From assembly GCA_029641185.1 (NCBI GenBank), contig JAPWGK010000002.1:2108001-2172000 (forward strand): a stretch of DNA of 64,000 bases, in the 5' to 3' direction. A model generated the notes under the pieces. It did no database searches. It saw nothing but the letters and a program-made list of their open reading frames with translations, and was not told the origin of the DNA. This DNA comes from Pseudofabraea citricarpa. Taxonomy: Eukaryota > Ascomycota > Leotiomycetes > Helotiales > Dermateaceae. Shown here in pieces: positions 8,440 through 32,600 of the stretch; the stretch's first letter is position 1, and each line of letters starts with the position of its first letter. A program made the position numbers and the translations under genes.

Positions 8440-10114
8440 ATGTCTGCAACTACTGTCCACGTCAAGAATATCTCTGCCCAGACAGGCGAGAAGGAGGTCA
8501 AGGACTTCTTCAGCTTCTGGTAAGTCGTTATGCGCTCCAATCCTCCCTACCACCATTCGATACGAGCATCTTCAATGTCCTCAACAGCCAGCTTCAGATT
8601 GAGGCTGTCTGGCGCCTGTTGGTCGGCGAGCATTTGTTGACTCGAAGTGCGGGGTTCACCTCCTCACCTCAGCGAACTTAATAACATTTGCGAAACCGAG
8701 TACTAACTTTATTTTCAGTGGCAAGATTACCGAAATCAAGATCACCCCAGCTGGCGAGACTCAAGATGCCACTGTCACATTTGAGAAGGAGACTGCAGCT
8801 AAGACCGCTCTGCTCCTTGATAACACTCAACTCAATAGCACCCATGTCAAGGTGACCAGCGCCACTGGTTCCACCGAAGACGACGGAAGCCATTTCACCA
8901 GCAACACCGAGCGTGATAGCGACGAGATTACACAGGAGGAGAAGCCAAGAAGCCGAATCATTGCAGAGTATCTCGCACACGGATATGTTGTTGGTGATAC
9001 CGCAGCCCAGCGTGCTATCGACCTCGACTCCAAGCATGGCATCTCTACTCGATTCCTTACCACCCTCAAGAACATTGATGCCAAATACCACCCAACCGAT
9101 AAGGCCAAGTCTGTCGACACTACCTATGGTGTTTCTACCAAAGCCAACAGCCTTCTTTCTGGTCTCACCTCATACTATGAGAAGGCTGCCGGTACTCCAA
9201 CTGGCCAAAAGCTCGTCAACTTTTATACGCAAACCTCTCGCCAAGTCCAAGATATCCACACCGAGGCTCGCCGACTAGCAGATCTCAAGAAGCAGGAACA
9301 GGCGGGAAACAATACTTGTAAGTGTGGTTCTGATTCGGAAAAGTGTCCCTGCCCACCTGGGAACTGTACATGCGCCAACTGCGCCAAGTCTGATGTAAAG
9401 ACTGTCCCTGGAACTAACAACAAGACAACCTGCAAATGCGGTGGATCTACGGAGGCTTGTCCATGCAAGGAAGGCCAATGCGCTTGCTCATCATGCCCCA
9501 AATCCGATGTCAAGACCGTTCCCGGATCCGATAAGACGACCTGCGACTGCAAAGGATCGACTGCCAACTGCGCCTGTGAGGGAGGAAAGTGTGCTTGTGG
9601 TTCCTGCCCCAAGTCAACATTGAAGCCCGTCTCCGGAACCGATAAGACAACTTGCGATTGCAATGGATCTACTGCCAATTGTGCCTGCGAGGGTGGCAAG
9701 TGTGCCTGTGGTTCTTGTCCCAAGTCAACGCTAAAACCTGTCTCTGGAACTGACAAGACAACCTGTGACTGCAAAGGATCCACTGCCAATTGTGCATGCG
9801 AGAACGGAAAGTGTGCCTGTGGTTCCTGTCCTAAGTCGACCCTGAAGTCAGTTTCTGGATCCGATAAGACGACGTGTGATTGCGGAGGTGCCACAGCCAG
9901 TTGCCCTTGCGCACCTGGAAAGTGTGCAGTAAGTAAAACCTTTGAATGGTACCATTTTACTGAGCTAACAATAACTGAATAGTGCAACTCATGTGCTAAG
10001 GCCCAGACCGAGCTCGTCCCAGGAACTAATAAAACCAAGTGCAAGTGTGCCGGAGACGACAAGAATTGCCCTTGCGAAGCCGGTGCCTGCGCCTGCGATG
10101 GATGCTCCAAGTAG
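8440..10114 (+). CDS. Vip1-type RRM protein with seven C-terminal metallothionein-like modules (long isoform)
   Basis: Long form of an RNA-binding protein related to fungal Vip1. Exons 8440-8519, 8719-9928 and 9983-10114 encode 473 residues; introns are 199 nt (TACTAAC branch site) and 54 nt. Residues about 4-75 form one RRM (TTVHVKNIS as RNP2, a β-rich second half ending STHVKVTSA). Residues 76-226 are the helical Vip1 region with PRSRIIAEYLAHGY and FYTQTSRQVQDIHTEARRL. From residue 227 the chain becomes seven 22-residue modules of pattern CxCx6CxCx4CxCx2C, 49 Cys in all, like the 7-Cys core of Neurospora copper metallothionein. They are joined by 15-16-residue KS-T/D-K-V-G linkers. There is no Met in the array, so it can only be made as a fusion. 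Expected role: RNA binding plus Cu, Zn or Cd binding in cytosol or nucleus. Confidence 0.85.
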
Positions 10115-10307
10115 AATGACCTGGATGTTCTTTGGGCGAACAAATTTTTAATTCTGTATCAATATTGCGTTGTATTTGCTAACTTTTGCTTTTGCTTTTT
10201 CAGCTACTCCTTCTGCAACTGCTGCTGCTTCTTCTGCACCTGCTGTTCCTGTCGTTGATTCTACAAAAGTTGCACCTCTCAATGATGAGAAGACTACTTA
10301 TGCTTAA
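8440..10307 (+). CDS. Vip1-type RRM protein, short isoform without the metal-binding array (alternative splice)
   Basis: Alternative product of the same gene, predicted from splice signals. Exons 8440-8519, 8719-9317 and 10204-10307 give 260 residues, a normal length for Vip1 homologues. The donor is a perfect GTAAGT at 9318-9323. The acceptor is a strong site with TTGCTAAC branch region (10177-10183), a T/C tract and CAG at 10201-10203. The join is in phase (T+CT gives Ser) and adds a 34-residue Ala/Ser/Pro tail ending in APLNDEKTTYA before TAA at 10305. Joining the other donor (9929) to this acceptor is out of frame and gives a poly-Leu peptide, so the phase match to 9318 is meaningful. This is probably the ancestral, constitutive product. 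Confidence 0.72.
9317..10105 (+). repeat. Seven metallothionein-like coding repeats, 111-bp period
   Basis: Modules start at 9317, 9431, 9542, 9653, 9764, 9875 and, after the inner intron, in exon 3. Module six is split by the 54-nt intron between KCA and CNSC. Modules 3, 4 and 5 are nearly identical in protein and differ mostly at silent positions, suggesting recent duplication or homogenisation under selection on the protein. Modules 1, 2, 6 and 7 are more diverged. Confidence 0.9.
9318..10203 (+). promoter_or_regulatory. Alternative intron containing the metallothionein array
   Basis: This 886-nt interval is an intron in the short isoform and mostly coding in the long one. Its donor overlaps the codons for the first Cys-Lys-Cys of the array. 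It contains a nested 54-nt intron (9929-9982, GTAAGT...TAG). Whether it is removed or kept decides if the protein carries metal-binding modules. Confidence 0.65.
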
Positions 10308-10733
10308 TCGTTTGGCGTTGTTTTTCACGGATGTTGAACGGAATGGAAAAGTGGACAGAATGGATGGCTATTATGGAGATGATACCAATGGACGGGTGAT
10401 GAGATGAGTTATTATGCTCTTCTAAAGCGAGGCGATATTTGCGTTGCTTGGTTTTTCTGCTTTCGTAGGAGTAGAGAATCAATACCTTTACTACAATTTC
10501 TTGGACAACTCGGAAGCACGTGTGATTGTTAAGACCATTCTTAGGAAATAAAATCCCTTAAGAAGTTTTGATTTTCGACTGCCACTTATCAAATTACAAT
10601 AGTTGTACAGTTATTTACGTCATCAAATGGACTTTCATTTTTGTCCTATTCTAATTCCATCCTTCCCAGATTATTATCTACCAGCCTCCGAAGAATGAAT
10701 TAATATCGTGTATCATACAAGTAATACCATCCT

Positions 10734-15530: not shown

Positions 15531-16714
15531 ATTTGAATGCTTTGATTAAGTTTTCTATTTATCTTAACTATGACTGTAAAAATGATACGGATGTATATTA
15601 CAGGTTTGCAAACTGATTGCGATCATTACCTATCAGTTGGTTTTGTAGTATTAATACAAGGGCATGTGATAATCCCAAGTACGATTTTATCGATGACGCG
15701 GTGGAAGTTGTAAGGATCACCGACCTTTGCAAGCGGAATAGCTTCTTATGCTAAACGAAGACTAGAAATAGGGGCCCCGTGGGGTTGACTCGCTAAACCC
15801 CGGGCCAGCTGATTGATCTACTTTGCAGGAACTTAAGTATCGCATTTAACTTGTGTCGGGTTTTTGAAGACTTGTTTGCTTGGAATTCGGTGGCTAGCGA
15901 AAGCTTTTGCTTGTTGAAATACGTGATTAATCGAATATACTTGGGTACCTACTAATTTCAGTCAAGTATCCGACTAAGCTTTGAATTTGAAGCTCTCTTG
16001 TATCCTACTTTTGCGACGACTTGCTAATAACCTTTGCAGATGTTAATGCTATCTAAGTCTCTATATTCCTAGCTATTAAGAACACAACTTCATTACATAG
16101 ATACTTCAATTACAGGTGTAAATTGAAACACTAATTTTCTCTGGAACAATTCTAACATCACCATAGTGTTGCTGAACAAACCTGTACTTTAGTTGAAAGT
16201 CGCTTTTTACTTACTGTTGGAATAATAGTCAAACAAGGCACGTGGTACGCTAGTGCCTATATAAGGCCTCCTCCTGTAGCTCCTCTTCCAATTGAACAAC
16301 CATCTTACATCAATCATTACGAGCCACCACAGTGAATCACTGTATTGACCTTATGATATCGGAGGATACCGACACTTACATTTGATTCATTTTTCAACCA
16401 TGCGCGACTTATGCAGGCAACGTCATTTTAATTTTGTGTTGCGACTTTCGTTGTCTACTAAGAGAAAATAACCAATAAAACAACACATAATAATTTACGA
16501 AGTAACTTAGTGATACGTCAAAGGAAGTGGCTATGTTCAGAACGCCTTGTCGCTTACTGCAGAACATGGGTGTTTCGCCAATGAACGAACCTCCCTTGTG
16601 TTCAGCCTTATCAGCTCATATGCAAGCCATATAAGGTTCAGCTGAATTGAGAACTTCAAGAAACCCAAACATGAATGGTTTCTTTTCAAACCTGAATCAA
16701 TTGTTTTCTTGAGC
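15531..16714. other. Divergent intergenic region
   Basis: This gap carries the promoters of the duplicated-motif protein (minus) and the HeLo-like/pseudokinase gene (plus). No gene is seen. A CT-rich stretch with a TATA-like TATATAAGG lies near 16257-16266, but about 450 bp from the next start codon. Confidence 0.5.
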
Positions 16715-18358
16715 ATGGAGACTGGGGCTCTTACAACCGATGTCGGTGAGTTACTGCTCGCTTTTAAAGGAGCAGTAAACGGCTATGTACCCATCAAGGC
16801 AATCATAGAAAACGACAACGGCTCACAACATCTGGCCTTACGATATTTCGTCGAAAAACAGAAGCTGATCCTTTGGGGGCTGCACTTTAACGTCGATGAA
16901 GAAAAGTGTACTTTCCAAATCGAATCCAATCACACACAGCAGGTTATAGCTGCAATTCTAGCAGAGATACAAGTGACTCATGCTATAGCACTACCATACG
17001 TATCTCGATACAGTACAGGTATCACACAGCCAATTCAGCAGACTGCACAAGATGGGGCGGGCTATTTGAGAAGCTGGGCAAAAAAGGCCAAAGCAAAAAG
17101 TGGCATTCGCAAAACCCGCCATGGCACCCGATGGACTGTCAAAGACAAAGCCAAATTTGAGCAGCTGGTAAATAGGCTCACAAAACTCAATACTGATCTA
17201 TACAATATCATTCAAGTCCAAGACGCTCAATTACTGGATAAAGCTCTTATATCCGCTGTCATCGCTTCGCTCGATGACGCAGAATCCCTAGATACACTAC
17301 AGGATATCAAGTCTCAACAGACGGAAAAAGCATCTCTCTTTGGCCTAAGTGCTAAGGTTAAGAGGTTACTTCTTTCTTCTGATTCAGATGCAGCCAAATG
17401 GACTATTCATGTACCCGCCTCATCCATTACTCTTGCACCTGCTACGACAAACAATACATCTACTCAGGCTGGATACTATGATTCTCCAGGTGGGACGATT
17501 ATACCTATTTGGGTTGAATGGAAAGTTTTACAACCACAACTATCAGCCATGGACAAAGATCGCATGCGACAACGTATATTGGCTCTTAGTGCTGCCTTAT
17601 CCACCGCGGCAAAGCAGCACTCCCAATTCCTCATACCTTCATGCGTTGGAACCTACGAGGACAGAGAATACGCACCAAACTTTCTTGGCCAGTATCGGAT
17701 AGGATACATTTTTCAAGTACCAGCAGAAGTTGGGAGTGGGGCACAGAGATATTCCCTTCACGATATCATCACGCGGTCGGCTCAAGTCCATGATCGATAC
17801 CCACTCGGAACTAGATTCCAGCTTGCTAAGAGCCTTGCCATCTCTCTGTCGCTACTACATGCTTGCAGCTGGCTTCATAAAGGGTTTCGCAGCCAAAATA
17901 TAATCTTTGCTTCATCTACACCCGATGTCTCCATATCTCGGCCGATGGTAACTGGATTCGAATACTCCCACCCACACAATGGCGACTCGGCCAGTACGCA
18001 GTGGCTGCCAGAACCAGAGGTTGCCATATACCAGCACCCCGAAATTGGCCAAGAATTTCAAAAAATGCACGATGTGTACAGCTTAGGTGTTGTTCTGTTT
18101 GAAATTGCGCTCTGGCGACCGCTTATTGATCTCAAGTCGAAGAAAATAAAGAAAAGCGCAACGCGGCAGGCAGTGCGAGACTTCTTGCTTAATAATTTGG
18201 TTTCGCTGCGGGGGCTGGTTGGTGATATCTACACTGATGTTGTGAAAACATGCTTGACATGTTCCTTTGTTCAACATACTACTTCTTCGGGCCATGTCTC
18301 GTTTGAGCAGGCTTTCTTTAGTGAGGTAGTTCAAAAATTGGATAGTTGTAAAGCTTAA
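16715..18358 (+). CDS. HeLo-like domain plus pseudokinase protein (fungal MLKL-like architecture)
   Basis: Predicted cell-death or incompatibility factor in one exon, 547 residues. The N-terminal ~110 residues resemble the helical HeLo/prion-inhibition domain, with a helix ending in EKQKLILWGLHFNV. A Lys-rich linker follows (about 125-150). The C-terminal half is a kinase-like domain: AKSLAISLSLLHACSWLH, then HKGFRSQNIIF in place of HRDxxxxN (about residue 387), GFE in place of DFG (about 414) and DVYSLGVVLFEIALW (about 452). The catalytic Asp is absent, so it should be a pseudokinase; this family typically has HKxxRSxN. The architecture parallels plant and animal MLKL. The ATG at 16715 is used; the N-terminus is shorter than in typical HeLo domains, so an upstream exon could be missing. 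Confidence 0.8.
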   Translation: METGALTTDVGELLLAFKGAVNGYVPIKAIIENDNGSQHLALRYFVEKQKLILWGLHFNVDEEKCTFQIESNHTQQVIAAILAEIQVTHAIALPYVSRYSTGITQPIQQTAQDGAGYLRSWAKKAKAKSGIRKTRHGTRWTVKDKAKFEQLVNRLTKLNTDLYNIIQVQDAQLLDKALISAVIASLDDAESLDTLQDIKSQQTEKASLFGLSAKVKRLLLSSDSDAAKWTIHVPASSITLAPATTNNTSTQAGYYDSPGGTIIPIWVEWKVLQPQLSAMDKDRMRQRILALSAALSTAAKQHSQFLIPSCVGTYEDREYAPNFLGQYRIGYIFQVPAEVGSGAQRYSLHDIITRSAQVHDRYPLGTRFQLAKSLAISLSLLHACSWLHKGFRSQNIIFASSTPDVSISRPMVTGFEYSHPHNGDSASTQWLPEPEVAIYQHPEIGQEFQKMHDVYSLGVVLFEIALWRPLIDLKSKKIKKSATRQAVRDFLLNNLVSLRGLVGDIYTDVVKTCLTCSFVQHTTSSGHVSFEQAFFSEVVQKLDSCKA

Positions 18359-18551
18359 TAATTATATAGAATCCAAAAGATTTCCTAAGAATCTATACGT
18401 CATATATATATATTCCCACATTGATATAAACGATACTACAAGTAGTCTATTACAAAAGATGAACATTACCTTCCCACAGGTGATATATATCGCGTTACTA
18501 TAAGCTTATCATATTATTATCATTGTTGTTGTTGTTATTATTATTTAAAGT

Positions 18552-18640
18552 TCTGTTGTCAGTTCTAATACTGTTGTCAGCTGTATTACTGTTGTCAGCT
18601 GTATTACTGTTGTCAGCTGTATTACTGTTGTCAGTTATGA
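18552..18640. repeat. 18-bp minisatellite
   Basis: The unit CTGTTGTCAGCTGTATTA occurs three times exactly (18571, 18589, 18607) with imperfect copies on each side. It lies in the 3' flank of the HeLo-like gene, just after an ATT/GTT-rich tract. Confidence 0.9.
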
Positions 18641-19762
18641 AAACAAGCAATATTTTACAGGTAAAACACATGCCCTTTGCTGATTTTAATATAACTTCCA
18701 CTCCCAACTATACACCTGCATATCTGTACGCCTACACATCTATACCATGCACACACACACTCTCTCATCGTCATCTTGTGCCGATATTTGCAGTTACGGG
18801 GCAAACTTTTACCGGCCGCCGCTCTTATATATTCCCAAGACAGGCACTCGCTACGGCTTTTTAGTGTGGCCAATCACTTAGCTTGGGAAGTATGCTCTCA
18901 AGCAGTGCTAAGCACTTGTTAATACCTAAAGTCTATGGTATCGACGCTAAAAGTCGCAACAACTAATCCAAGGGATAAGACTTGACAAATTCTAGACTCA
19001 GAGATCCCCATACATAGCATGATAAATATTCTAATAAAAAATCAAAGAAAAAAAGCGCCATTCCATTATGCAATTCTTTCTACTCCGAACCTTAGAAGAA
19101 TCAAATGACCTACAGCCTATTTAATCATGTACAAGTGCTTTGTGACTCTTCAGACTGTTAGTCGCTTAAGCACTTGGCTATTTGTGAAGAGAAAAGGCAC
19201 CCAGGTAATTAAATCCAAATAGAAAGCATAGCTATCTTTTCTGATATTATAGGTAGATAGTCAATGCCTGCAGTACTTGTATAGGAACACCCTGACTAAT
19301 CATGTCAAGCTTTGCCAATACTAGCGAAGCATTCAACCGTCATGTCTGGGCAGGCCTGGGCAACGCGTCCAACCAAAAACTAGCCACAGCAGTGTCGATC
19401 CGGAACGAGGTGCCACGAATAAGCAATCACGCCTGGTCAAGATGAAACTGTAATTCCATCGAAATTGAGCTTGGCGCACGCAATTCTGCGTTTTGACGGG
19501 TGCACAATGCCATTCCAAGTTTTCTTGGTATTATTTGCCAAGGTGACGTCAGCCACACCCCCCAGTCTGTGCGCTCCATCTCCATGCACACTAGCGAGCT
19601 GGCAAAGCAAACAAATACCTGACAACAACCCGCCGATGGCTTAAGAAGTCATATCTCCCTTCGTTATTTGTCTCTCCTCCTTCATCAACATCCTCAGGGT
19701 TGAACTGAGCGCTCTCTCTCTCTTGATCCCACCCTCTCCACTTCTCAGATCGCATCATCAAG
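18641..19762. other. Intergenic region upstream of the PAP2 gene
   Basis: About 1.1 kb without a supportable gene. It contains one copy of a dispersed fragment (19256-19370, listed separately). The last 150 bp before 19763 are CT-rich, as expected of a fungal promoter and leader. Confidence 0.5.
19256..19370 (+). repeat. Copy 1 of a dispersed 5'-gene fragment (partner at 40676-40790, inverted)
   Basis: About 70 bp from 19299 match the minus strand of 40745-40676 with one mismatch. An open frame from ATG at 19302 would begin MSSFANTSEAFNRH in both copies. Upstream of the ATG the similarity continues weakly, mostly with C/T and G/A differences. Downstream the copies diverge after GGGCAACGCG. 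This copy has no further supported coding sequence. Confidence 0.75.
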
Positions 19763-20984
19763 ATGGGACTCTTTACGCGACGACAGCCCGAGGCACATGC
19801 CGCTCCTAACAATGGACATGGGCATGTTAAGCATGAGAAAGCCGCCCGCCATGGCCGCAAGGAACCACACATCACGAACATGAGCAGCAAGCCATCTTTC
19901 GGTCAATGGCTGAAGGTCACTTGGCTTGATATCCTTACTATGGCTGCCATGGGAGTTATCGGTCTGGGAGTAAGTTCGCCATCAATTAACCACCTCGCTT
20001 CCATACTGACAGGCAATCCAGGTTTACGAAGCTCATCCTGCACCATCTCGATCATTTCCAGTTTATTTCCAGGATGGCGAGATTGTCTATCCTCAATTCG
20101 CATACCCCATGCGAAACGAGATTGTTCCTATCTGGGCTGCCGCACTCCTCGCCGCACTTGTTCCTATTTTCGTCTTCTTGGTCTGCCAGATCCGCGTCCG
20201 CTCATTTTGGGATGTCAACAACGCCGTTATTGGTCTTCTCTACTCCCTCATCACCGCAGCAGTCTTTCAAGTCTTTCTCAAGTGGTTGATTGGTGGCCTT
20301 CGCCCTCATTTCCTGACGGTTTGCAAACCCAATATTCCAGTAACGACTGCACAAGAGACTGGCAATGGATTGAACATGATCATGTATGATCGTACCATCT
20401 GCACTGGAGACCAAGATGAGATTGATGATTCCCTTGAGTCCTTCCCATCTGGTCACTCGACTGCAGCATTCGCTGGATTCGTCTTTCTCTACTTATATCT
20501 CAACGCAAAGCTCAAGGTCTGGTCCAATTATCATCCAGCAATGTGGAAATTGATTGTCACTTATGCTCCAATTCTTGGTGCAACCCTCATCGCAGGTGCT
20601 CTTACTATTGATGAGTATCACAACTGGTATGACTGTGTGGCAGGTGCCATCATCGGAACTGTCATGGCTTTCAGTGCTTACAGAATGGTCTACGCCTCCA
20701 TCTGGGACTGGCGTACCAACCATATCCCACTTAACCGTAGTGTGCCATTCCCTGGTGCAGCTGCTGGTGCCGAATTGGAAAATGCTGTCTTCACCCATCA
20801 AGTCGGCTGGGGTACTGGTGCTGGATACGGACATGGGCACCACCGTGGCAACGGAGGAATGGTTCAAGGTGGTGAGATTCCAAACAAGGAATATGCTCAC
20901 GGAAGTGGAGTTGGGAGAAAACCAGTCGCTGGCGGTTCCAATGGAGTTGGTGGCCACTATAATGGCTCAGACAACATTGTCTAA
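19763..20984 (+). CDS. PAP2-superfamily lipid phosphatase (diacylglycerol pyrophosphate phosphatase-like)
   Basis: Membrane phosphatase probably acting on phosphatidic acid or diacylglycerol pyrophosphate, like yeast Dpp1/Lpp1. Exons 19763-19969 and 20022-20984 (52-nt intron, GTAAGT...CCAG) give 389 residues. There are about six transmembrane segments. The phosphatase motifs are KWLIGGLRP (about residue 156-164), FPSGHST (about 210) and EYHNWYD (about 268). In the third motif the usual Ser-Arg before x5-H is replaced by Ala-Leu (GALTIDEYHNWYD). The His and Asp of that motif are kept, so activity is likely but not certain. The N-terminus is His/Lys-rich and the last 70 residues are Gly/His-rich. 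Not clearly linked to its recognition-gene neighbours. Confidence 0.9.
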
Positions 20985-21617
20985 ATGATTGACGATGAAA
21001 AACTTAATCAAAACATTAAACGACCTTTCGTCCTTCTTCTTCTAAGGTATTGGAGCATGGCGTGGAGCATTTGGCGATGGATTCTTCTCTCCTGGCCAAT
21101 AATTTAAGGCATTCAGGAATTTCAATAATCAATTATTCTAATTTGGCAGAATAGCAAAGCAAAATATACCCCCTCAAATTCTGAATGAAAATAGTCTTTC
21201 TTTATACCCCTCTATATTTGAAAACGTTTGTACAAATTTTGGTCATATTCTAAGAGCAATCTATCGTCAGAGGAAACATCCCGAGTAGAAAAATATGGAG
21301 AGGAATTAATAGATCAATGATAAATTATTATCCTTTGGAACTTGACTGAAAAAGTTTTCATACCTTTTATATACGCCAAGCAAGTTATGATTGGCTTTAA
21401 GACTTGACTGTCAATGAATGACTCGGATGAACCCATAATAATTTCTTGAGTTGCTTTATTTCGCTTGTTTGCTGTGTGCCATAGCCAAGCTGACCCCACC
21501 TTTATGATCCAACCATCTTGAGTCCACAATTGATGTTTTTCCTTTGCTAAAAACAATGAATTATGTATCTTGGTGAATAAACACAGTCGCAACCCTCGAT
21601 CCTGTAATTTATGCTAA
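20985..21617. other. Intergenic region
   Basis: This gap holds the 3' flank of the PAP2 gene and the promoter of the HET gene. A 92-codon minus-strand frame (21314-21592) has no motifs and is not called. Confidence 0.5.
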
Positions 21618-23711
21618 ATGGCCCAAGCTCGTCTAACCTTCCCGAAGGACAACCTCGATAATCGATTGTCAATCTCCTGCCACGTTGCTGAAGACTGGGA
21701 GTGTTTTAAAAAGAAAGAGGATGCTTGGGTATGCGTCTATTGCCAAACTTTTCTGTCGAAATGGCCCCAATGGAGAGAGCCCAACAAAAATGGCTGGAAA
21801 ATATCAAATTTGTATCCCAGCACCCTGAGATTATGGAGGGATAGCATGGAGAGCTTAACGTACTGTTCGGCTTGTACGCCTAGCTTAGAGAGTATTCTAC
21901 AGCATTACAAAAAATTCAAGGATGCGAATCATGATTCAAACACATACCTTGATGACGAGCTTTTTTTCTTTGTCGTCGAACAAAATCACGAGGGATCTTT
22001 TGGATGGTGGAGACTTGACGTCAAATACACGAACGAGGACTTGAAATTTAATGCTGGAATTGATTCCTGGGAGGTTTTTCGTATTTTGAATCTATCAGCG
22101 TCTGAAAAGAATGAAGTCCGAGGAGCTTCGTGTTGGTTGACGCCTGATATTTTGCGCCAGAACACTTTCCCATCAATACCTCTGTATGGACAATCGACAG
22201 GAAACGTACAGTCTTCTGCTTTAGTCAAAAGATGGTATGAAGAGTGCGTAGCAAGCCACCCTGACTGCAAGCACCAGGGCCAGCGAAAGCTGCCAACTCG
22301 ACTGCTGAAGTTCCAAGACGGGAAGCTGAAGCTCTGTCTGGGTGCCGAGCTCCGCAATGACAGCCGGTATGCGACGCTGAGCCATTGCTGGGGTACTTCT
22401 GAGAGAATGAACTTGGTACGGGACAATTTCCAGGAATTTCTGGTGGATATACCTCTCACTAAGCTGTGTAGGACGTTTCAAAATGCACTCTGTGTGCTTG
22501 GTCGCTTAGACCTTCACTATATCTGGATTGATAGCTTATGCATTATCCAAGATGACGCTGCAGATTGGGGAAGGGAAGCAGTGCTCATGCAAGATGTATA
22601 TGGATTTTCAGATCTCACAATTGCAGCAGCTAGTTCCACGGATGGGGACCAGGGCTGCTTTCACGAACGAAACATACGACCGCCGGTCGTGCTCAAGGTG
22701 AGTATAGCAAATATTGGAAACTGGGGTATTATTCCTGAAGGAGAAGACAAATGGATACCGGTAATCTCCGACCTCCCGTTATCCCGCAGAGCATGGGTCT
22801 TTCAAGAGCGAATTCTCTCCCACCGTATCGTCTACTTTACCGATACGCAGCTGGTGTGGAAATGTTTGTCGAGCAGAACGTTAGAATGTCAACCGGACCT
22901 CGAGCCATACTCAAGCGTAGACCCGATTGGCGGCCCTAAATTCTGGATTCAAGCCATCCAGCAATACTCGGCATGCGATTTAACATATGCAAGCGATAAA
23001 CTGGTTGCCATTTCTGGCGTCGCTAAGAAAAGATACAATCTATGCCCAGACCAATACGTCGCAGGGTTTTTCAGAGAAGATTTAGAAGAGCAACTCTGCT
23101 GGTACCATATTGGCAAAAAGGCCCCAAGACAAGAACAGTATACGGCTCCATCTTGGTCCTGGGCTTGTGTGTCAGGCCCAGTAATTCCATGCAACTATGT
23201 ATGGTACGAACAAGACGAGCATGCACTAATTCTTATCAAAATCCTTGACATTGACATCACACTCTCTGGACCGGATCCAATGGGAGCTGTATCGAAAGGC
23301 GCATTGACTTTGTCAATCCCTGGCCTCTTCACTAACAGTATCTGTGTCGAAACACACAGCAAAGACGAGTTTAAACGTGAGTTGATAGTAAGGCTTGGAA
23401 GTTTACGGCTTCGTGGCCAAGCTTACTACGATATCCTCCTTGATAAATACACAACGTATGTACTTTTGCCAGTTCGACAAGTTAGGGTCCAGAATGAATA
23501 CCGTACTGCTAGAGTGGAAGGTCTTATTATAAGGCCTACGTCTCAACGACCTGGTGAATATGAAAGAATTGGCTTCTTCCGAGTATTTCACACAATCACC
23601 ACAGATTGGAAATCTCTAGAGACCATGATATCCTATACATCTGTTGAGCAGACAACATTGTTTACGGACGCAGAAGGTGTGCCTGGAGCATACATAATAT
23701 CTCTTGTGTAG
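21618..23711 (+). CDS. HET-domain protein (heterokaryon incompatibility type)
   Basis: Single-exon gene of 697 residues. The N-terminal ~240 residues include Cys-rich segments (CVYCQTF, CSACTPSL, CKHQGQRK) of unknown role. The HET domain starts near residue 250: YATLSHCWG, then FQNALCVLGRL, IWIDSLCIIQDD, DWGREAVLMQDVY and LTIAAASSTDGDQGCF, followed by SRRAWVFQERILSHRIVYF. This matches the canonical layout closely. The C-terminal 300 residues are variable, as usual. HET proteins trigger cell death on non-self recognition in fungi; many paralogues are of unknown specificity. It lies with other recognition-type genes between 16.7 and 33 kb. Confidence 0.93.
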   Translation: MAQARLTFPKDNLDNRLSISCHVAEDWECFKKKEDAWVCVYCQTFLSKWPQWREPNKNGWKISNLYPSTLRLWRDSMESLTYCSACTPSLESILQHYKKFKDANHDSNTYLDDELFFFVVEQNHEGSFGWWRLDVKYTNEDLKFNAGIDSWEVFRILNLSASEKNEVRGASCWLTPDILRQNTFPSIPLYGQSTGNVQSSALVKRWYEECVASHPDCKHQGQRKLPTRLLKFQDGKLKLCLGAELRNDSRYATLSHCWGTSERMNLVRDNFQEFLVDIPLTKLCRTFQNALCVLGRLDLHYIWIDSLCIIQDDAADWGREAVLMQDVYGFSDLTIAAASSTDGDQGCFHERNIRPPVVLKVSIANIGNWGIIPEGEDKWIPVISDLPLSRRAWVFQERILSHRIVYFTDTQLVWKCLSSRTLECQPDLEPYSSVDPIGGPKFWIQAIQQYSACDLTYASDKLVAISGVAKKRYNLCPDQYVAGFFREDLEEQLCWYHIGKKAPRQEQYTAPSWSWACVSGPVIPCNYVWYEQDEHALILIKILDIDITLSGPDPMGAVSKGALTLSIPGLFTNSICVETHSKDEFKRELIVRLGSLRLRGQAYYDILLDKYTTYVLLPVRQVRVQNEYRTARVEGLIIRPTSQRPGEYERIGFFRVFHTITTDWKSLETMISYTSVEQTTLFTDAEGVPGAYIISLV

Positions 23712-24392
23712 GGTGGCTTTTATCCACATTTATTATTCTTCTACCTTAGAACCAAAATCTTTAAACTATTACAGAAACCATTTATCATAAAGCCCTTCAT
23801 AAAATACTAGTGTCAAAAAGCTACCTTCCTATTTTTAAAATTGACAAATCTCTATATGATAGATATTAGCTAGCTGGATTTTATTTGTTGAACTTCCAAG
23901 TGATAGTTTTACATTTATATCGATTCATTCATTAGCCTAAAAACTGAAACCCACGAAATTAAGAAGCTAAACATACTAAAGTTTCATTATTTCAAAGAAT
24001 ATTTCAAGAGATTAATAGCGAATTTGACTTCAAGTTAGTGAGTAGAATCTTCTTATTTAGTGTCTGTTTTCTCAGTTACTCGGGAACTGTATTTCGGGTC
24101 CAAATTTCGGGAAATATCTTAGCACTCCCTCTCATTTATAGATTCCATTTATAATAAATAAACACCCACCGAGAATCCAGTGCTTTATTTTGAGGTCTCG
24201 AGATCTATTATAATAATGTAATGCTAAAGTGAAAAAAGGTATACTCATATGACTTGGCGAGTATTTTGAGTAAATATAGTTTTAAACAAGCGTTATTGCT
24301 GCAACAAATCGGGTTTGTGTTTTAGCACAGTATCCTGTCATTTGGGCTTGTGGTTTAGCGGAATAACAATACCATGGTACTGCTGCTAGCAG
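23712..24392. other. AT-rich intergenic region before the tRNA
   Basis: No gene is seen. At its 3' end are one clear and one weaker copy of the 5' half of the neighbouring tRNA. Confidence 0.5.
24344..24369 (+). pseudogene. Partial tRNA-Ala copy (5' half)
   Basis: GGGCTTGTGGTTTAG-GG-ATAA repeats the acceptor strand and A box of the complete tRNA 49 bp downstream, with one or two changes, and then stops. It has no anticodon arm, no B box and no 3' acceptor strand. A weaker copy (GGGTTTGTGTTTTAGCA) begins at about 24311. Confidence 0.7.
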
Positions 24393-24476
24393 GGGCTTGT
24401 GGTTTAGTGGTATAATACTCCCTTAGCATCTCTAAAGGTCTGGGAGTGGTCCAGGGTTCGATTCCCTGCAAGTCCA
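24393..24476 (+). tRNA. tRNA-Ala(AGC) with a ~12-nt intron
   Basis: The acceptor strands GGGCTTG and CAAGTCC pair fully and include a G3:U70 wobble, the alanine identity element; A73 follows. The anticodon stem is CTCCC/GGGAG. The loop reads TTAGCA, then about 12 nt of intron after position 37, then T. This gives anticodon AGC and the usual alanine loop TTAGCAT. The T arm is CAGGG-TTCGATT-CCCTG. The A box (TGGTTTAGTGG) and B box (GGTTCGATTCC) are intact and a TTTT terminator follows at about 24482. The D stem is weak, so folding should be checked. Confidence 0.85.
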
Positions 24477-25533
24477 TCAATCTTTTGCTCTTTTGTTCTT
24501 TGTTTTTGTCCTTTATGAATTTTGATTTTTGTTTTGCGTTGGTGCTTACTTGTTCCTCGCTAATTTTTTCCCCGTTAGCTGATTTCTACCTTAGCCGCGT
24601 GCGCACAGACCCGCCCCACTATGATTTATCTGACGGTTCGCACCAAGCGAAAGCGAGTGAAAGAAACCCTTGGAAACCTGCGTCTTTTAGAGTACCTAGG
24701 TACGTTTGATTAGCAGGTTACCAAATATAGATTTAAAATATCTTACAAGGAACAAATACTATTTATTCCCTTGATATTGCTATAACTACGTGAGGGAGTC
24801 TAACTGGTCGAATCCCTATGTAGCGGAAGAAAAGGATAGCTAGTTTGAAGCTGTCTTACTATTATAAGACTGTATATAGATTTCTTTTGATTTTAAAACG
24901 ATATAGTAATTCTAAGTCTAGAATAGAGATAACTGAGAATGTAATATTGAAAGTCGAGTTATAACACCAAAAAAATAATTATTGGTCTGGTGGTGTTTGA
25001 AACTGGGTTTCTTTATATGATAGGCGCGTTAACTACTTGTCGCATTTCAAGAGAGGAAACTTATTAGTAAATGAATGATTGCCGTGGAAGTCGAGCTAAG
25101 AATTGGTACTACTTATCATAATAGCCCCTCGAAGTCTCAAATTAACGACCTATAGAAAGAAGAGTATCACAATTCTCAAATAGAATATCTTCCATTTTTT
25201 TCGAACATTTTAAAGGACACCTATGTATTCGACTTTAATGTGAGCAAACAATCAATTATTTCAAGACTTTCAGCTCTATACCACAGAGTTTGGTATCCCG
25301 AGCGAAATAATCAAATCAAAACCTTCAATCCAAGCCACGGTAGCGGCTAGCTTTTATTGTTCAATTGTGGCTGGCAAACAACGCAACCTCAGGCTTGGCT
25401 AAAAGCTGAAAAGACGGCCAGACCGGGAATCAAAACATTGTCAACGAGATAAGAACCCCAAAGACTTTGAAACATCTTCACCGTAGAAAATCGTAGCTTG
25501 ATATATGAAATTTAATTGTATTTCGACCATAAA
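24477..25533. other. Intergenic region between tRNA and second HET gene
   Basis: No protein gene is seen. It includes a hairpin-forming stretch near 24786-24822 (CTACGT-AGGGA against TCCCTATGTAG). It also has a decayed tRNA-like element on the minus strand near 24965-25045. The promoter of the HET gene occupies the 3' end. Confidence 0.5.
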
Positions 25534-28258
25534 ATGGATTACAGTACGGTCAAGCTAGGTCCTGGTCAGATTCGCTTAATCACCATCCACCCCCCTGAGC
25601 CAGCTGGAGACTTGACGAGTCCTATTCGGTGCAAGATTGAATGCGTTAACCTTCCTCCAGGCCCTCCAGGCCCACCTACTAATGTGCGACCGGATACCCT
25701 TCCAGAAAACTACATCCACTTTGACCACTGGGTAACAGATAAGCCAGAAGAAAGCTTGGGAGCTCTTCTACTTCGTGAGGTTCGCCAAGCCGAATCTTTC
25801 GCCAGTGGAAGAGAAAAGGAAAGCAAAACAAACAAAACAGTTCGTGGTATTGCTAATGGTGCTCGCTGGGCTCTCAGGAGACCACCCATCAAAGTTGACG
25901 ATTTGCGCATTCCAATCCAGTCCTTGTTCCACTTGGTGACAAGGGATGATATCGCAAACACGATCCGCAGCGAAGAACTCAATGGAGGCTTTACAATCTC
26001 TCGCCAGACAGACCGACATGGAAATCCTCTTTCGGAGTATCAACAATACATCGCACACGTCAAAATAGCAGATTTGCCTCAATTCTATCGTTCCTATAAG
26101 GAAGATACCAATCCGTCCGCGCCTGTAAATCGATCAAACAACTATGTTGCAATGTCGTACTCCTGGGGTCCACCGACACCGAAAAAAAGGATCTTCCTGA
26201 ATGGCTATGCTCACGACGTAGGAGTAAATCTGGAAGCTGGTCTTCGCCAGTTCCGCAATATGGAGTATTTTCAGAAGAAGGGGAAGATTTGGATTGATGC
26301 GCTTTGCATCAACCAAACTGACACTACAGGCGAAAAAGAGGAACAGCTAAAACTCATGGGAACAATCTATCGACAAGCAGGAAACATCATCGTATGGCTT
26401 GGAGTTGCCGATGAACATACCAATGCTGCAATTGACAGTCTTCACACTACCAGTCTGATGTATCGGACCGAATACATGGAGGCGTTTGATAACTCGGATC
26501 CAATACTTGCTACAGCCCATCGAGAAATTTCATACATGAGGCAGAAGTCAGTACTTCAAAAATACACCAAGCTTTTGTATGATCACTATCACGAAATGGA
26601 TACCACAAAGGAAGATTTTCTGGTTTATCATTTCTTCAATAATCCTTATTGGCGCAGATTATGGATCATCCAAGAACTTGCAAATGGCAGATCGGGAATG
26701 CCAATCGTATATGGCTCTAGAGTAACTCAGTGGAGATACATTCGAGATGCCGCCTTTGTCTACACTGCATTCTTTGATCTTCTTCAAGAGAAGACTCGAG
26801 AGCTTCCCAACCATATACGTGGGTTGGAACTGAAGGACCATTCCATTTTCCACGTGGCCGGTATAGCTCAGATTGAAACCCACGGCCACCGTAAAAAGCT
26901 ACCGGAGATCGATAGGACATTTCTGCCATTTCAATTCAAGAACGGTCTTGGACATGGCCCTATGAGAGGATCTACGTTGCGGCAAGCATTGATGCTCGCG
27001 TCTCAAGCCGATTGCTTCGAGGCAAAAGATCGCGTGTATGGAATGCTTCAGATCCCTGGTCTTCCAGATCTCGGCATCACAGTAGACTACAAGAAAGCTG
27101 TGGGTCAGATATATCGAGAGTTTACGCAGGCTTTCACTGATAAGGGGAAGTCACTTGATGTCTTTTTCCTGCTCGATGGTTGTGGGATGTCGCTTACGGA
27201 TATCAATGGTAACGCACAGGAACGCGAGTCTTTACCTTCGTGGGTACCTGATTTTGGAGGAAAGCGCTCGCGTCGGCTTGGAATCATTGAAGGCACTTGG
27301 CATGCAAGTGGCAATCAACAAGGATTCGTGTGGGAATTTGATGGGATTCCAAGAGCAATTGAACCAATTACTAACGACGAGATTCTTCGCTGCTTTGGTT
27401 TCGTCGTCGAGACTGTCTCCGGAGTAGGGGCTATAAATCCTCGGGATATTGAAGGGAACCAGGTCGTGGAAGCAGGTTGGTTTAAATCGGGCGTCGTACA
27501 GCCGCGACAATCAGACCCTTTGGGACGTTCTGATACCGACTTGCTAGCATCACGCCTTCGCAACATGTTCCTTGGAGCCTCTGGAGGTGGTTCAATGATG
27601 GGGCAGTCATGGTCTGACGAGACTGATGCCGATTCCGAGGATGCAAATATCGATGATGTCTTGGTTGCAGGGACGAGAATAGGTGGTGCGAGAGCACCAG
27701 CTGATTTCAAATGCCTTCTGAATTGTTTCACTGGTAAGCGCTTTCTACTAATTCTTGATCGCTGTAAATTTACATACCGTGATCATGGCTAACGTTAATG
27801 GGACGCGACCAGACGAAGAACCATCGCCCGATCATCCAGACTATCACAACTGGCATTTCATAAACAGCAGTTCCTCGCTCTTGATTCAAGGACGTCCACT
27901 TTCCTCTTATTTCAGCTCGCCACCTCTTGTTCGTGATGAGGCACCATACCTTCTCACAGCAGCACGCCAGGCAATGCAAGCGCACACACACAAACGTCGC
28001 TTAATTGTGTCTTCGTCTGGTAAATTAGGACTAGCACCGATTGCAACACAACCAGGAGACTCGATAATTATTCTTATTGGTCACGGAATACCCATTATTG
28101 CCCGGCCTGCAGGAACGGTAGATGAAGCGAATGGCAGCCGGCATCCTGCTTGGACTATCATGGGTGAGTGTTTTGTGAATGGAATGATGATGGGTGAGAT
28201 GATGACGAGGGATATTTTTTCGGGCCGTAAATCAGTGAAGCCGTTTTATTTTGTATAG
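25534..28258 (+). CDS. HET-domain protein (second, HET-6-like layout)
   Basis: An 881-residue protein from exons 25534-27733 and 27813-28258. The 79-nt intron has donor GTAAGC, branch GGCTAACG and acceptor CCAG, and joins ...LNCFT to DEEPSPDHPDY in phase. The HET domain starts near residue 204: YVAMSYSWGPP, IFLNGYAHDVGVNL, KIWIDALCINQTD, MGTIYRQAGNIIVWLG, then YWRRLWIIQELANG. The C-terminus has the block common in this group, WTIMGECFVNGMMMGEMM. An N-terminal extension of about 200 residues contains a Pro-rich segment. ATG 25534 is the first in-frame ATG. The expected role is in incompatibility or non-self response. Confidence 0.92.
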
Positions 28259-28796
28259 ACATTACTAGTTCGTGTATCCCTATCTTTGTTTTTCTTAGGA
28301 TGGACTTTTTAATCGATTGTCTGGAGAGTACAAGCAACGAGTAGCCTTTCTTTAGAATTATTGATATCTTGGAAATGATGTTCCATATTCAGACGTGATT
28401 AACACGACCAGATACACGAGAACTATGGCCATGAGACGCTCCATTCGATAACCAATCATTTGTTGTCATTCCGCCTTAATTTCCCTGCATATTTCAACTT
28501 TGATCAAGAGCTAAAACATCTGAAAGTCACGGAGTAAATTTTCGGCGTATAAATTTTCCAGGTACCCGAGCTATTAACTCAATGTATGTGACCGTAACTC
28601 TTTCAGAAAGATAAAAGAGTATATAAGCAAAGCTACGGCCATGTGAATGAACTACCTAGGTACTTACTATAAAGTACCTGGAATTAAACCATCCCCAAAA
28701 ATGTTCATAGCCAAATCAATAATCCGGATATAATGACAAGAAAAGAAAAGAAAAGAAAGGAAAAGAGAAAATAACAAAAGCCTATTGAAAATGTAA

Positions 28797-28842
<46 letters not shown>

Positions 28843-29658
28843 TCTACATAGATCTAGGAGCACCATTAAACCACATGACCACAAAAGACCCACGATTCCA
28901 GAGACATAAATCCCCATCGATACAGCAAGGCTCAAGAGAATCTATCAATCTCAATCAAACCTCTATCAGAACACTATCTGAGAGCCAGGCCGAGAACCGA
29001 GCACATACATGGAGGTGGCAGCAAGGCTCCAACCCAAAGACAAATCAATCCACAGCAACATGCCCCTTTCCAGACCCTCAAAAACGCCACTCCCTATTTC
29101 TAGAACAGACCGTGATGTCAAGAGATATTTCCTAGTGAATCACTGACAACAAAAGCGCGAATGGCAACAGAAGCTAAATTTCAGCCGACAAATACTTCGA
29201 ATCCGTGACAGAGGTGGGAAATATGCTGGTGGGTGTTTGTTCTCTTTGGAGGGTTTGCACAGGACGTCGGGCAGTTCTATCTGGATCGCTCAAGTCGTAT
29301 CTTGGTCTTTTGTATCACGTAAAGAAAAAAGCAACGAGAAGGGAGAAGGGCTTTCTCAGATAGGATTTGCAGCTGGTTTTGTTCACTCTCAGATGACGGG
29401 GTTTTGTTTAGCGAGCTAGAACCGGGTATTTGCTTGATTCATCGAAGACTTATACTAGAAGCGACTTATAACTTGAAGCTCAACTCAAGATTGTAGATAT
29501 AGCAAAACTATCACTTCTCGCTATAAGAACTACTCATGTTCATGAAAAATTGCTCTGTTATATACAAGATCTGATGATTCGAAGTGCATTGCTTTCCAGT
29601 CCCTGAGGGATCAAGCTCAAAAGTCACTTCAGATATGAACAACTCCCATGCAGCATCC
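28259..29658. other. Intergenic region with simple repeats
   Basis: This gap lies between the HET gene and the 3' end of the NLR gene. It contains an AAAAG-rich purine tract (about 28738-28770), a TA run and a GT run. No gene is supported. Confidence 0.6.
28797..28838. repeat. (TA)n(GT)n microsatellite
   Basis: About six TA units followed by about 15 uninterrupted GT units (28809-28838). Confidence 0.97.
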
Positions 29659-32600
29659 TCACTCCATCCAAGCCAACACATCACCGCTAGACCTCCTCGT
29701 CTTCCTAAAAGATATAGCACCCGCAAGCTGCGGCTTCGTTCTAATGACATAATCACGATGTCGGATCCAATACGCCGCCGCGTACGTAGTTCCAAAGCCA
29801 CCCTCTTGAAAAGATTCAATGACAGTCAGATTGACCGAATCCGAGTCAAAACTTTTAAGAGAGCACGTGTCAGGGTCATCTTCGATCGTACCATCGAGAT
29901 TCCGTACACAGATGCCAGCTATCTGCGCGTGGACTTCGGACGCGGACATAAAGTACCGCTTTTGTCTAAAGTGATCCTTGACAGATTGGTGGCATAGCGC
30001 GACCAGAGAATTACCGCGGCGGTTCTCGTTTACCTGTTGGATATTTTGGATGGAGTCAGATATGGCGAGCAGTTCATCTTCATCGAAATCCTGATCCCAT
30101 GGATCTTGGATTTGGATCAATGGTCCGAGGAGGCGCTGCAGGTCTCCTTCAATATCAAGTGGCAGGAAATCCTCCACTGCCCATCCCAGTGAAATAAATT
30201 GTGGTTGTTCTGGTTCTTCCTTTTCTTTCCCGCTTGATGCGGAATTATTAACGTGCTGGAAAAGAGAGCCTGGTCCATATTTTACTGAGGGTTCTTGGGG
30301 TGATGTTTCCTGATCCTGCTCAGAATTACCAGTTTTCCCTTGCGATAGTAGATGTGCCTTAAACGCTGCGTTGCGATCATATATAGCAACGAATCTAGAG
30401 AATTCTATTAAAGTAAGAGGAGTAAATGCGCACAGAATCCAGGAAAAGAATGTATGGGCCCTGGTGGCATCTTCACCCTCCACCGTTTGTAACCAAATCT
30501 GATCATATATTTCTGAAAGTGTTGTTGGAAGAGAGTTCAGAAGCTCTGTGATAGCATGTGGTGAAGATCTTGCTGAGCCCTGAAGCATATCTACTAGTAA
30601 CTTGACAATCAAGTACATCTTTTCTGCCCGAGATGCGATCCGATGGATTATTTCGGTCCGGTACGGCTGAAAGTGTGGTCGTCTCTGTATCAAATCGAAA
30701 ACCCTGAACTTGGTATATGTTAACAGATCGTGGTCCATTTCTGCCTCGAGGTTCAGATCCAACTTGATTAGGTTTTTAGTTTGGAAAGAAAGCTCTGTGT
30801 AAGGCCGGCTAGTTAATATGAACCTCACGCAATTACGAGCTGCCGTTTGGGATGATATGATTCGGTCCATGAATGAGACGAATTCAGCTCTTTCAGCTTT
30901 CACTACACACTCATCGAGGCCATCGATAATAATTACCACTGGTGCTCGTAATCTAAAGTCGGGGTATGAGTCCATCAGAAGTGAGTATAAAATACGCAAA
31001 AGTTCTTGGGTTGACCAGATCGCTATGGGGAGCTTCTGAGCTACGAGGTGACGATATCTGTCCAACAATTCCTCGGGTAATGGCAAATTGCACTTTTGTA
31101 GGATCTGAGCTATCAGAGAGGCTATGATATTAGAAAGACGACTTCTTTTCTCGACACGGGCATTGAATGCAAAGAAGGCGATGGTTTCCTGAAAGGTTGT
31201 TAGCCGGCATACAGATGCAAGCGGTAAGAGACAAACGTTTGTCCTTCGAGCACCAAGTCTCGTGAAAAGAAACTTCGATAATACACTTTTCCCACTTCCT
31301 GGCTTGCCAGTTATATACCAGGCGCCAGAGAGCTCATGTGTAATGCTTTCACGATATCCCGTGTGATTTAGGGTCCACTCAAAAGTCCTCGTCTCCCGGT
31401 CAACAGTGTCATAAAGATGCTGTTGAACATTCATTGAACTTAGACTTTCGAGGGCTTTTATACATTGATCTGACAGAGTCTCCGTGCTATTATGACCTAT
31501 ACCACAGGCTTGGTAAGCGAAATGGATATCCTCTGAGGTATAAGTCACATTACATGACGGCAAGAGAAAATTAAAAACCTCTACATACGTTGAAAATGAT
31601 CTTCGCTCTCTTGAACTTCTGTCGATACGATGTCCTTGCCATTTAAAGACGTTGCGCAAGCTTGGACATCGACCGAAACATCCTTCGTCGCAAGATATAC
31701 TCGAGTAGCAGCAGCAATTTTTGCTGACTCTTTATATTCCTCAAGGCCAACATTCTCTAACCCTCTTACGACATTAAACCGGTAGTATGCCTTTGTTGTT
31801 CTCCTCTGGCCCACGACACAGAAACGTTGGTGCATACTTTGAAATCTCTCAGCTGTCTCCTCGGTCTCGGTAGAAATCGCAACGAGGGTTTTCGCTACCT
31901 GGGGAATAGAGCTTCCAAAAGCCCCCAATGTTGGCCGTCCTGTGCCAATGCTGATTATAGCTTCACAGCGCTCGTCAAAATCTGGCCATAGTGATCGCGC
32001 CTCTTCTAACACTCTCTCGACGGGATTGTTGCAGCCAGTCGCACCATCTACAAACTGCTCTCCAAACTCACCAATCTTAATAGGGTCAAAGAACGTTGAT
32101 GCTGCCGACGTTGCTCGACCAGCCTCCCATATTTTACAGTCAACTTCGCTTGGGGCTTTCGAGCTATAGCTTCGAAGGATGGCAGTCTTTGTGCCCAATT
32201 CAGATCGAGTAGCACAAACAAATCTAATGAACAGCCCTCAGCATGTGCTCTAAATATATGTACCTCGAAAAGACTCACACGCGACATTTAGGATGCGGGT
32301 TCTCTTTGTCTTTCAGCAGTGCCTCGCAATCGCCGGTAGCCCTTTCCGAAATATCTTGTATCGCAACCCTCAATGCCTCGGAGTCAAACTTCCCTCGGAC
32401 CTTGACAGCATCTGATATTCTTCCCAGCCAGTCGCTCTTCCGCCGCCGGGGCTGGAACACCGTTTCCGACAACCGAAGATAAATAGATATGCAGTCCTGG
32501 ATATCCATTTCGAGGCGTCCGAGCATGAGCGCTATTAAACTACAACCGAATAAGCATATTTCTGGAGCCGCGACGGATGTGCAAACCCTCCCGTGCTGGT

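Follow-up and report, generated by a model that had tools for sequence, protein, structure and literature searches.

A single gene on the + strand of the window (the whole 64,000-nucleotide stretch of the Pseudofabraea citricarpa contig that was analysed), at positions 8440-10307, encodes a Vip1-type protein with an RNA recognition motif (RRM) and has two alternative 3' ends. The favoured explanation, which is probably correct, is that this one gene yields two C-termini by splice choice, and that the long form would be an RNA-tethered thiolate buffer. Sequence comparisons give good support to the view that the gene encodes a conserved, alternatively spliced RRM-metallothionein fusion, because modules of the metallothionein-like array are under selection, the fusion is spread over fungal classes, long and short proteins part at the same switch point, and the splice donor appears to have left a Lys imprint on the protein. 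The parts of the gene are as follows (window positions).

8440-8519, 8719-9317 and 10204-10307, + strand: short transcript, encoding 260 aa
8440-8519, 8719-9928 and 9983-10114, + strand: long transcript, encoding 473 aa, with stop TAG at 10112-10114
8440-8519, + strand: first coding exon, where the sole in-frame start lies and the RRM begins; relatives align across it
8520-8718, + strand: intron 1 (GTAAGT ... CTAAC ... CAG)
8719-9317, + strand: common part of exon 2, which completes the RRM and adds the helical region of Vip1; the short form exits at 9317
9318-10203, + strand: facultative intron of 886 nt, removed in the short form and retained in the long form
9316-9928, + strand: array modules 1 to 6, ending at the inner donor; module 6 is finished beyond the inner intron
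9929-9982, + strand: inner intron of 54 nt (GTAAGT, CTAAC at 9965, TAG)
9983-10114, + strand: rest of module 6, followed by module 7 and the long-form stop TAG
10204-10307, + strand: last exon of the short form, with a tail containing TKVAPL, a motif that recurs in relatives, and stop TAA

A preliminary description of the locus had proposed one RRM gene with two 3' ends produced by splicing, and its exons and frames proved exact to the base; the lengths of the proposed 886-nt and 54-nt introns and the GTAAGT donors were likewise confirmed in the sequence. Joining 9317 to 10204 would produce the 260-residue protein with its conserved TKVAPL tail, and keeping the 886-nt intron while removing the 54-nt intron would produce seven modules resembling fungal metallothionein, with the stop ending at 10114. 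If the 54-nt intron is also retained, the protein ends at 447 aa. GTAAGT occurs three times in 8440-10400 (at 8520, 9318 and 9929), exactly the three proposed donors. CTAAC is found at 9965 and 10179, each upstream of one of the two acceptors, and again at 9414, where it has no such place. When the facultative intron is retained, its donor doubles as the first Cys-Lys-Cys of the array (T-GT-AAG-T). No in-frame ATG was found across 8603-9982; hence the array exon is without a start of its own, and translation of the array must therefore begin at the Vip1 start, in agreement with the earlier claim that the array exists only as a fusion. We infer that the window species makes both transcripts. 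On the - strand, a 311-codon open frame lies antisense to the array (9223-10158) and is probably a by-product of the TGY-rich repeats.

Several comparisons bear on the identity of the common part. The N-terminal RRM matches RRM_1 above the Pfam cut-off, and the common part of exon 2 carries both this match (E 9.4e-08) and the conserved core. The short form is 74-77% identical to named Lachnellula and Monilinia proteins over 98-100% of its length, relatives are annotated as "Protein vip1" in databases, and the region that follows the RRM is shared with vip1-named proteins, with many invariant columns beyond residue 99. A PDB look-up of the short form gave weak RRM matches only, the best at E 0.003. 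In the predicted structure of a relative, P0227 (mean pLDDT 65), the RRM (residues 1-70) has high confidence, and the helical part beyond it and the rest of the model have low confidence. Within the 44-Mb genome, a 98-residue piece of the array gave four matches, all inside the Vip1 gene, and the Vip1 core hit its own gene, with a single additional match at E 0.1. By these searches, both the Vip1 locus and the array are present once. Elsewhere in the window, 15 kb at 16646-31731 hold a HeLo-domain protein (16646-18358), two HET-domain proteins (21618-23711 and 25516-27792) and, on the - strand, an NPHP3_N (NACHT-like) protein (29659-31731), a group that looks like a fungal incompatibility or NLR-type gene cluster.

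The array comprises 248 aa with 49 Cys (19.8%), arranged in seven modules of seven Cys with a period of 37-38 aa and the pattern C-x-C-x6-C-x-C-x4-C-x-C-x2-C, i.e. three CxC and one Cys. Met is absent, as had been noted for the seven modules at the outset, and so are His, Phe, Tyr and Trp (0 of 248 residues); these five residues together account for 33 of 3513 positions in the arrays of 37 long relatives. Comparison of the modules with one another indicated selection. Across 36 codons, modules 3 and 4 have 17 synonymous differences and 1 nonsynonymous difference (binomial P 8e-10, taking about 75% of codon changes to be nonsynonymous when there is no selection), modules 3 and 5 have 15 and 3 (P 3e-7), and modules 4 and 5 have 14 and 4 (P 4e-6). 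The remaining 18 module pairs are more diverged, with 12 to 23 nonsynonymous and 6 to 15 synonymous differences and no such excess, so the test speaks for the recent trio only. These data show that the protein sequence of modules 3-5 is under selection and that the array is more than chance; on this synonymous excess, a non-coding repeat inside an intron was rejected. Database searches yielded no match for the array: the first 205 residues matched no Pfam family up to E 1, the whole array had no match in NCBIfam, and a 99-residue piece had no sequence match in the PDB up to E 10. A search of the fungus's own genome with Pfam Metallothi_Euk2 was uninformative, as none of 14 controls was detected either.

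Additional evidence came from proteins of other fungi, collected with three queries. Among the best 120 of 1442 matches to the long-form protein, 75 carry an array and 45 do not; named proteins with an array come from Coleophoma, Hymenoscyphus, Mollisia, Diplocarpon, Hyaloscypha, Botrytis, Rutstroemia, Pseudogymnoascus, Chlorociboria and Geoglossum. The second query was a distant fusion, P0118, with proteins under 260 aa left out. Its best 120 of 1167 matches included 14 that were already known and 106 new ones, all 106 with at least 7 Cys past the core and 68 of them with exactly 14, which usually means two modules. Genera in this Dothideomycete/Eurotiomycete-type set include Cercospora, Dothistroma, Zymoseptoria, Aureobasidium, Elsinoe and Phyllosticta, as well as Fonsecaea, Exophiala and Phialophora. 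The best 120 of 2168 matches to the short form added 47 further proteins, all of them short, including those of Lachnellula, Monilinia, Sclerotinia trifoliorum and Glarea. Together, the best 120 matches per query gave 273 proteins, 181 long and 92 short. As judged from these protein sequences, fusions of an RRM with an array are spread over Leotiomycetes, Dothideomycetes, Chaetothyriales and Geoglossum and are not peculiar to this genome.

The position of the array within the protein varies. Among the 75 long proteins from the long-form query, the array ends the protein directly after the last module in 35, as in the window, and within three residues in 43. In 12 long proteins among the best 120 of 1442 matches to that query, a KVAPL- or KIQPL-type tail comes after the array, and four such array-plus-tail proteins (P0025, P0027, P0086 and P0114) lie on jgi contigs of 1.0 to 1.5 kb. 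A further tail past the array is found in, for example, Pseudogymnoascus, Diplocarpon and Chaetothyriales, and the array-plus-tail proteins suggest that certain lineages may use the array as a cassette instead of as the end of the protein. Two Teratosphaeria models, P0121 (T. destructans, 626 aa) and P0176 (T. nubilosa, 488 aa), have an RRM, an array and an extra C-terminal stretch that none of the other collected proteins shows, perhaps a merged neighbouring gene. A protein of Phialophora macrospora, P0190, bears the database name "hypothetical protein, variant", which hints that annotators saw a second transcript.

Long and short proteins part company at a shared point. In Leotiomycetes, long proteins typically read KTT|CKC at the switch and short ones KTT|S. 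The array opens with TTCKC in 49 of the 61 usable long proteins (long-form and short-form queries), a looser KTTS-type pattern stands at the switch in 64 of the 92 short proteins, and 71 of the 92 have the TKVAPL tail motif. The long protein P0035 and the short protein P0106 are identical over 248 residues and then diverge exactly at this point, as KTT|CKC and KTT|SPS. The first 34 of these shared residues precede MSAS and are probably translated 5' leader. P0035 carries the source label "merc", used for proteins assembled from metatranscriptomes of marine eukaryotes; P0106 was built from four jgi contigs, of which the longest has 1241 bases, and its near-copies P0111 and P0112 are merc entries. 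The pair represents both forms in one species, probably sampled as metatranscripts. Another protein, P0028, lacks the first module, which may reflect an isoform or an error; metatranscriptome assemblies can collapse repeats. In Drepanopeziza brunnea, the long P0029 and the short P0251 have 204 identical core residues and part right after KTT, but the P0029 model skips the start of the first module and places a tail behind the array, which limits the comparison with P0251. Diplocarpon coronariae P0005 (array plus tail) is 97% alike to the short D. rosae P0108. Among the 273 proteins, these three groups are the only long-short pairs at least 97% alike. The preliminary description had suggested looking for the same content in Vip1 orthologues of Leotiomycetes, and proteins of both lengths that part at this shared position do occur there; as these relatives are known here from proteins, their donors and introns are presumed.

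If the donor of the facultative intron is used in relatives, it should leave a trace in the long proteins. A working GTAAGT donor needs AAG, and the residue between the first two Cys should therefore be Lys. Lys occupies the first CxC in 58 of 61 first modules and in 25 of 104 later modules; after thinning, the counts are 53 of 56 and 24 of 96. For this count, P0061 and P0118 were excluded beforehand, and 12 of the remaining 73 long proteins were skipped where the first Cys opens no standard module. The associated P (1e-20) overstates independence, since the proteins are related. In the Dothideomycete/Eurotiomycete-type set, Lys is found in 29 of 106 first modules and 7 of 94 later ones and is thus somewhat favoured there too. 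Codons at the Lys position were read in the window, and relatives were compared at the protein level. While these data are consistent with an imprint of the splice donor, the Lys could have another cause, in that the first module may itself need it as a protein.

A tree of cores bears on whether two kinds of gene underlie the two kinds of protein. It comprises 157 cores (72 long, 84 short and the window), with proteins lacking a clear core omitted and 12 named proteins offered from the 106 of the P0118 query. The long and short labels change 29 times, with at least 9 changes forced by well-supported branches, so the forms interleave. The labels are also clustered: shuffled labels need 51.8 changes on average, none of 500 shuffles was as low as 29, and some groups, such as that of Pseudogymnoascus, are represented by long proteins only. 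This clustering counts against the reading of two forms from one gene. It would fit two paralogues, a plain Vip1 and a Vip1-metallothionein, as would the origin of most long and short proteins from different clusters. However, the one Vip1 locus here contains both ends, with the next match at E 0.1, and the gene models P0001, P0005 and P0029 hold array and tail in one gene. Paralogues are thus a highly improbable source of the two forms, and this reading was rejected on the single locus and the interleaving on the tree. The window groups with P0001 of Coleophoma cylindrospora (91% core identity).

Other explanations differ from splice choice in which of the two forms they treat as the real product. 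The long form might be constitutive, with short proteins arising by low-level missplicing or from gene callers that skip the Cys-rich stretch. The array found in all 106 new entries of the Dothideomycete/Eurotiomycete-type list, from which proteins under 260 aa were excluded, fits this, and gene models at the Vip1 locus do err, as in P0098, where the array is read in another frame. Nevertheless, a constitutive long form is unlikely given that many short proteins lie on jgi/lgn contigs of about 1 kb that are probably transcripts, that the short P0269 is a Trinity transcript, that the TKVAPL tail is conserved, and that Lys is kept in the first CxC. Conversely, the short form might be the product and the long form an unproductive retention event without a working protein. 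This is very unlikely, since the array is under protein-level selection, has its own intron, often has a stop right after its last module (35 of 75 long proteins) and is kept in several fungal classes; retained introns are nonetheless common in fungi, and short proteins are numerous (92 of 273). The least probable alternative, to the point of being nearly negligible, is a separate downstream metallothionein gene that was wrongly joined to Vip1 in the reading. As a domain the array would be complete on its own, but its exon has no start and the fusion recurs in many species and on short contigs, and the merged gene was rejected for these reasons.

Parts of the system have known counterparts. 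Fungal 7-Cys copper metallothioneins include the Neurospora crassa type and the multi-module CMT proteins of Cryptococcus. The window array resembles them in its tandem CxC, CxC, CxC, C modules, its Cys content of about 20% with CxC, and its lack of His and aromatic residues; it differs in that its spacers are one residue longer than in the Neurospora module and that, where fungal metallothioneins are small free-standing proteins, it lies within a 473-aa protein, joined to an RRM protein and translated only when an intron is retained. Exitrons, and regulated intron retention more generally, involve introns that are coding and either spliced or kept. The 886-nt intron is coding when retained and would likewise be spliced or kept; the proteins P0035 and P0106 may reflect both states in one organism. 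Unlike exitrons, it holds a whole repeat domain, a second small intron and a stop codon of its own, its length is not divisible by three, and it seems to be conserved throughout a fungal class. Alternative 3' ends within introns, which exchange one C-terminus for another, are also a known kind, and the two C-termini of this gene, chosen by splicing, would be of that kind. Like the Vip1-type RRM proteins, named after Schizosaccharomyces pombe Vip1, the protein has an RRM followed by a helical region, its type being set by vip1-named relatives, but its long form bears the metallothionein-like array. The RNAs bound by S. pombe Vip1 are described as unknown in PMC7397868.

We know of no other case of an RRM and a metallothionein-like chain in one protein. 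The preliminary description had likewise named no known precedent for such a fusion made by alternative splicing, and a search of the open-licence literature found no report of an RRM-metallothionein fusion. Neither "RRM" nor "RNA recognition" appears in the main text of PMC12508003, which deals with metallothioneins from Agaricus and further fungi. PMC3158057 cites, as its reference 61, a metallothionein-like gene at the mating-type locus of Pyrenopeziza brassicae, a Leotiomycete. One array protein has appeared in an expression study: P0187, a two-module RRM-array protein, is MYCFIDRAFT_158260 of Pseudocercospora fijiensis. The plant bZIP factor VIP1 is, to our knowledge, unrelated to the fungal Vip1-type RRM protein. 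PMC10607838 lists MYCFIDRAFT_158260 ("Protein vip1") as one of the ten genes with the highest expression in germinating conidia; work on plant VIP1 is cited there for its role.

Under the favoured explanation of splice choice at one gene, the long form would carry its thiolate modules like beads on a string, tethered to RNA, and would buffer Cu(I) or other soft metals. The share of the Vip1 pool that bears the thiolate chain would then depend on splice choice. To judge by their Cys pattern, the array modules very probably bind metal, and RNA-bound metal buffering is the likeliest role of the long form. The splice ratio may matter or be regulated; that metal controls it is a tentative suggestion, and a rather doubtful one. 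The confidence placed in metal binding and in metal control is a judgement and was not computed. A more elaborate model, which seems less probable still, is a metal-responsive regulator in which metal loading alters RNA binding, and Vip1 or metal status shifts the splicing of the array intron, so that a single gene would sense metal, buffer it and respond to it post-transcriptionally. In this model the fusion would date far back in Pezizomycotina, and Leotiomycetes would have developed its splice control further. RNA binding and a metallothionein-like chain are joined here in genes labelled merely "RRM domain" or "Protein vip1", and surveys for small metallothioneins would miss arrays that are reached by intron retention. 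If splice choice sets metal-binding capacity, copper buffering in filamentous fungi would become directly testable at one locus.
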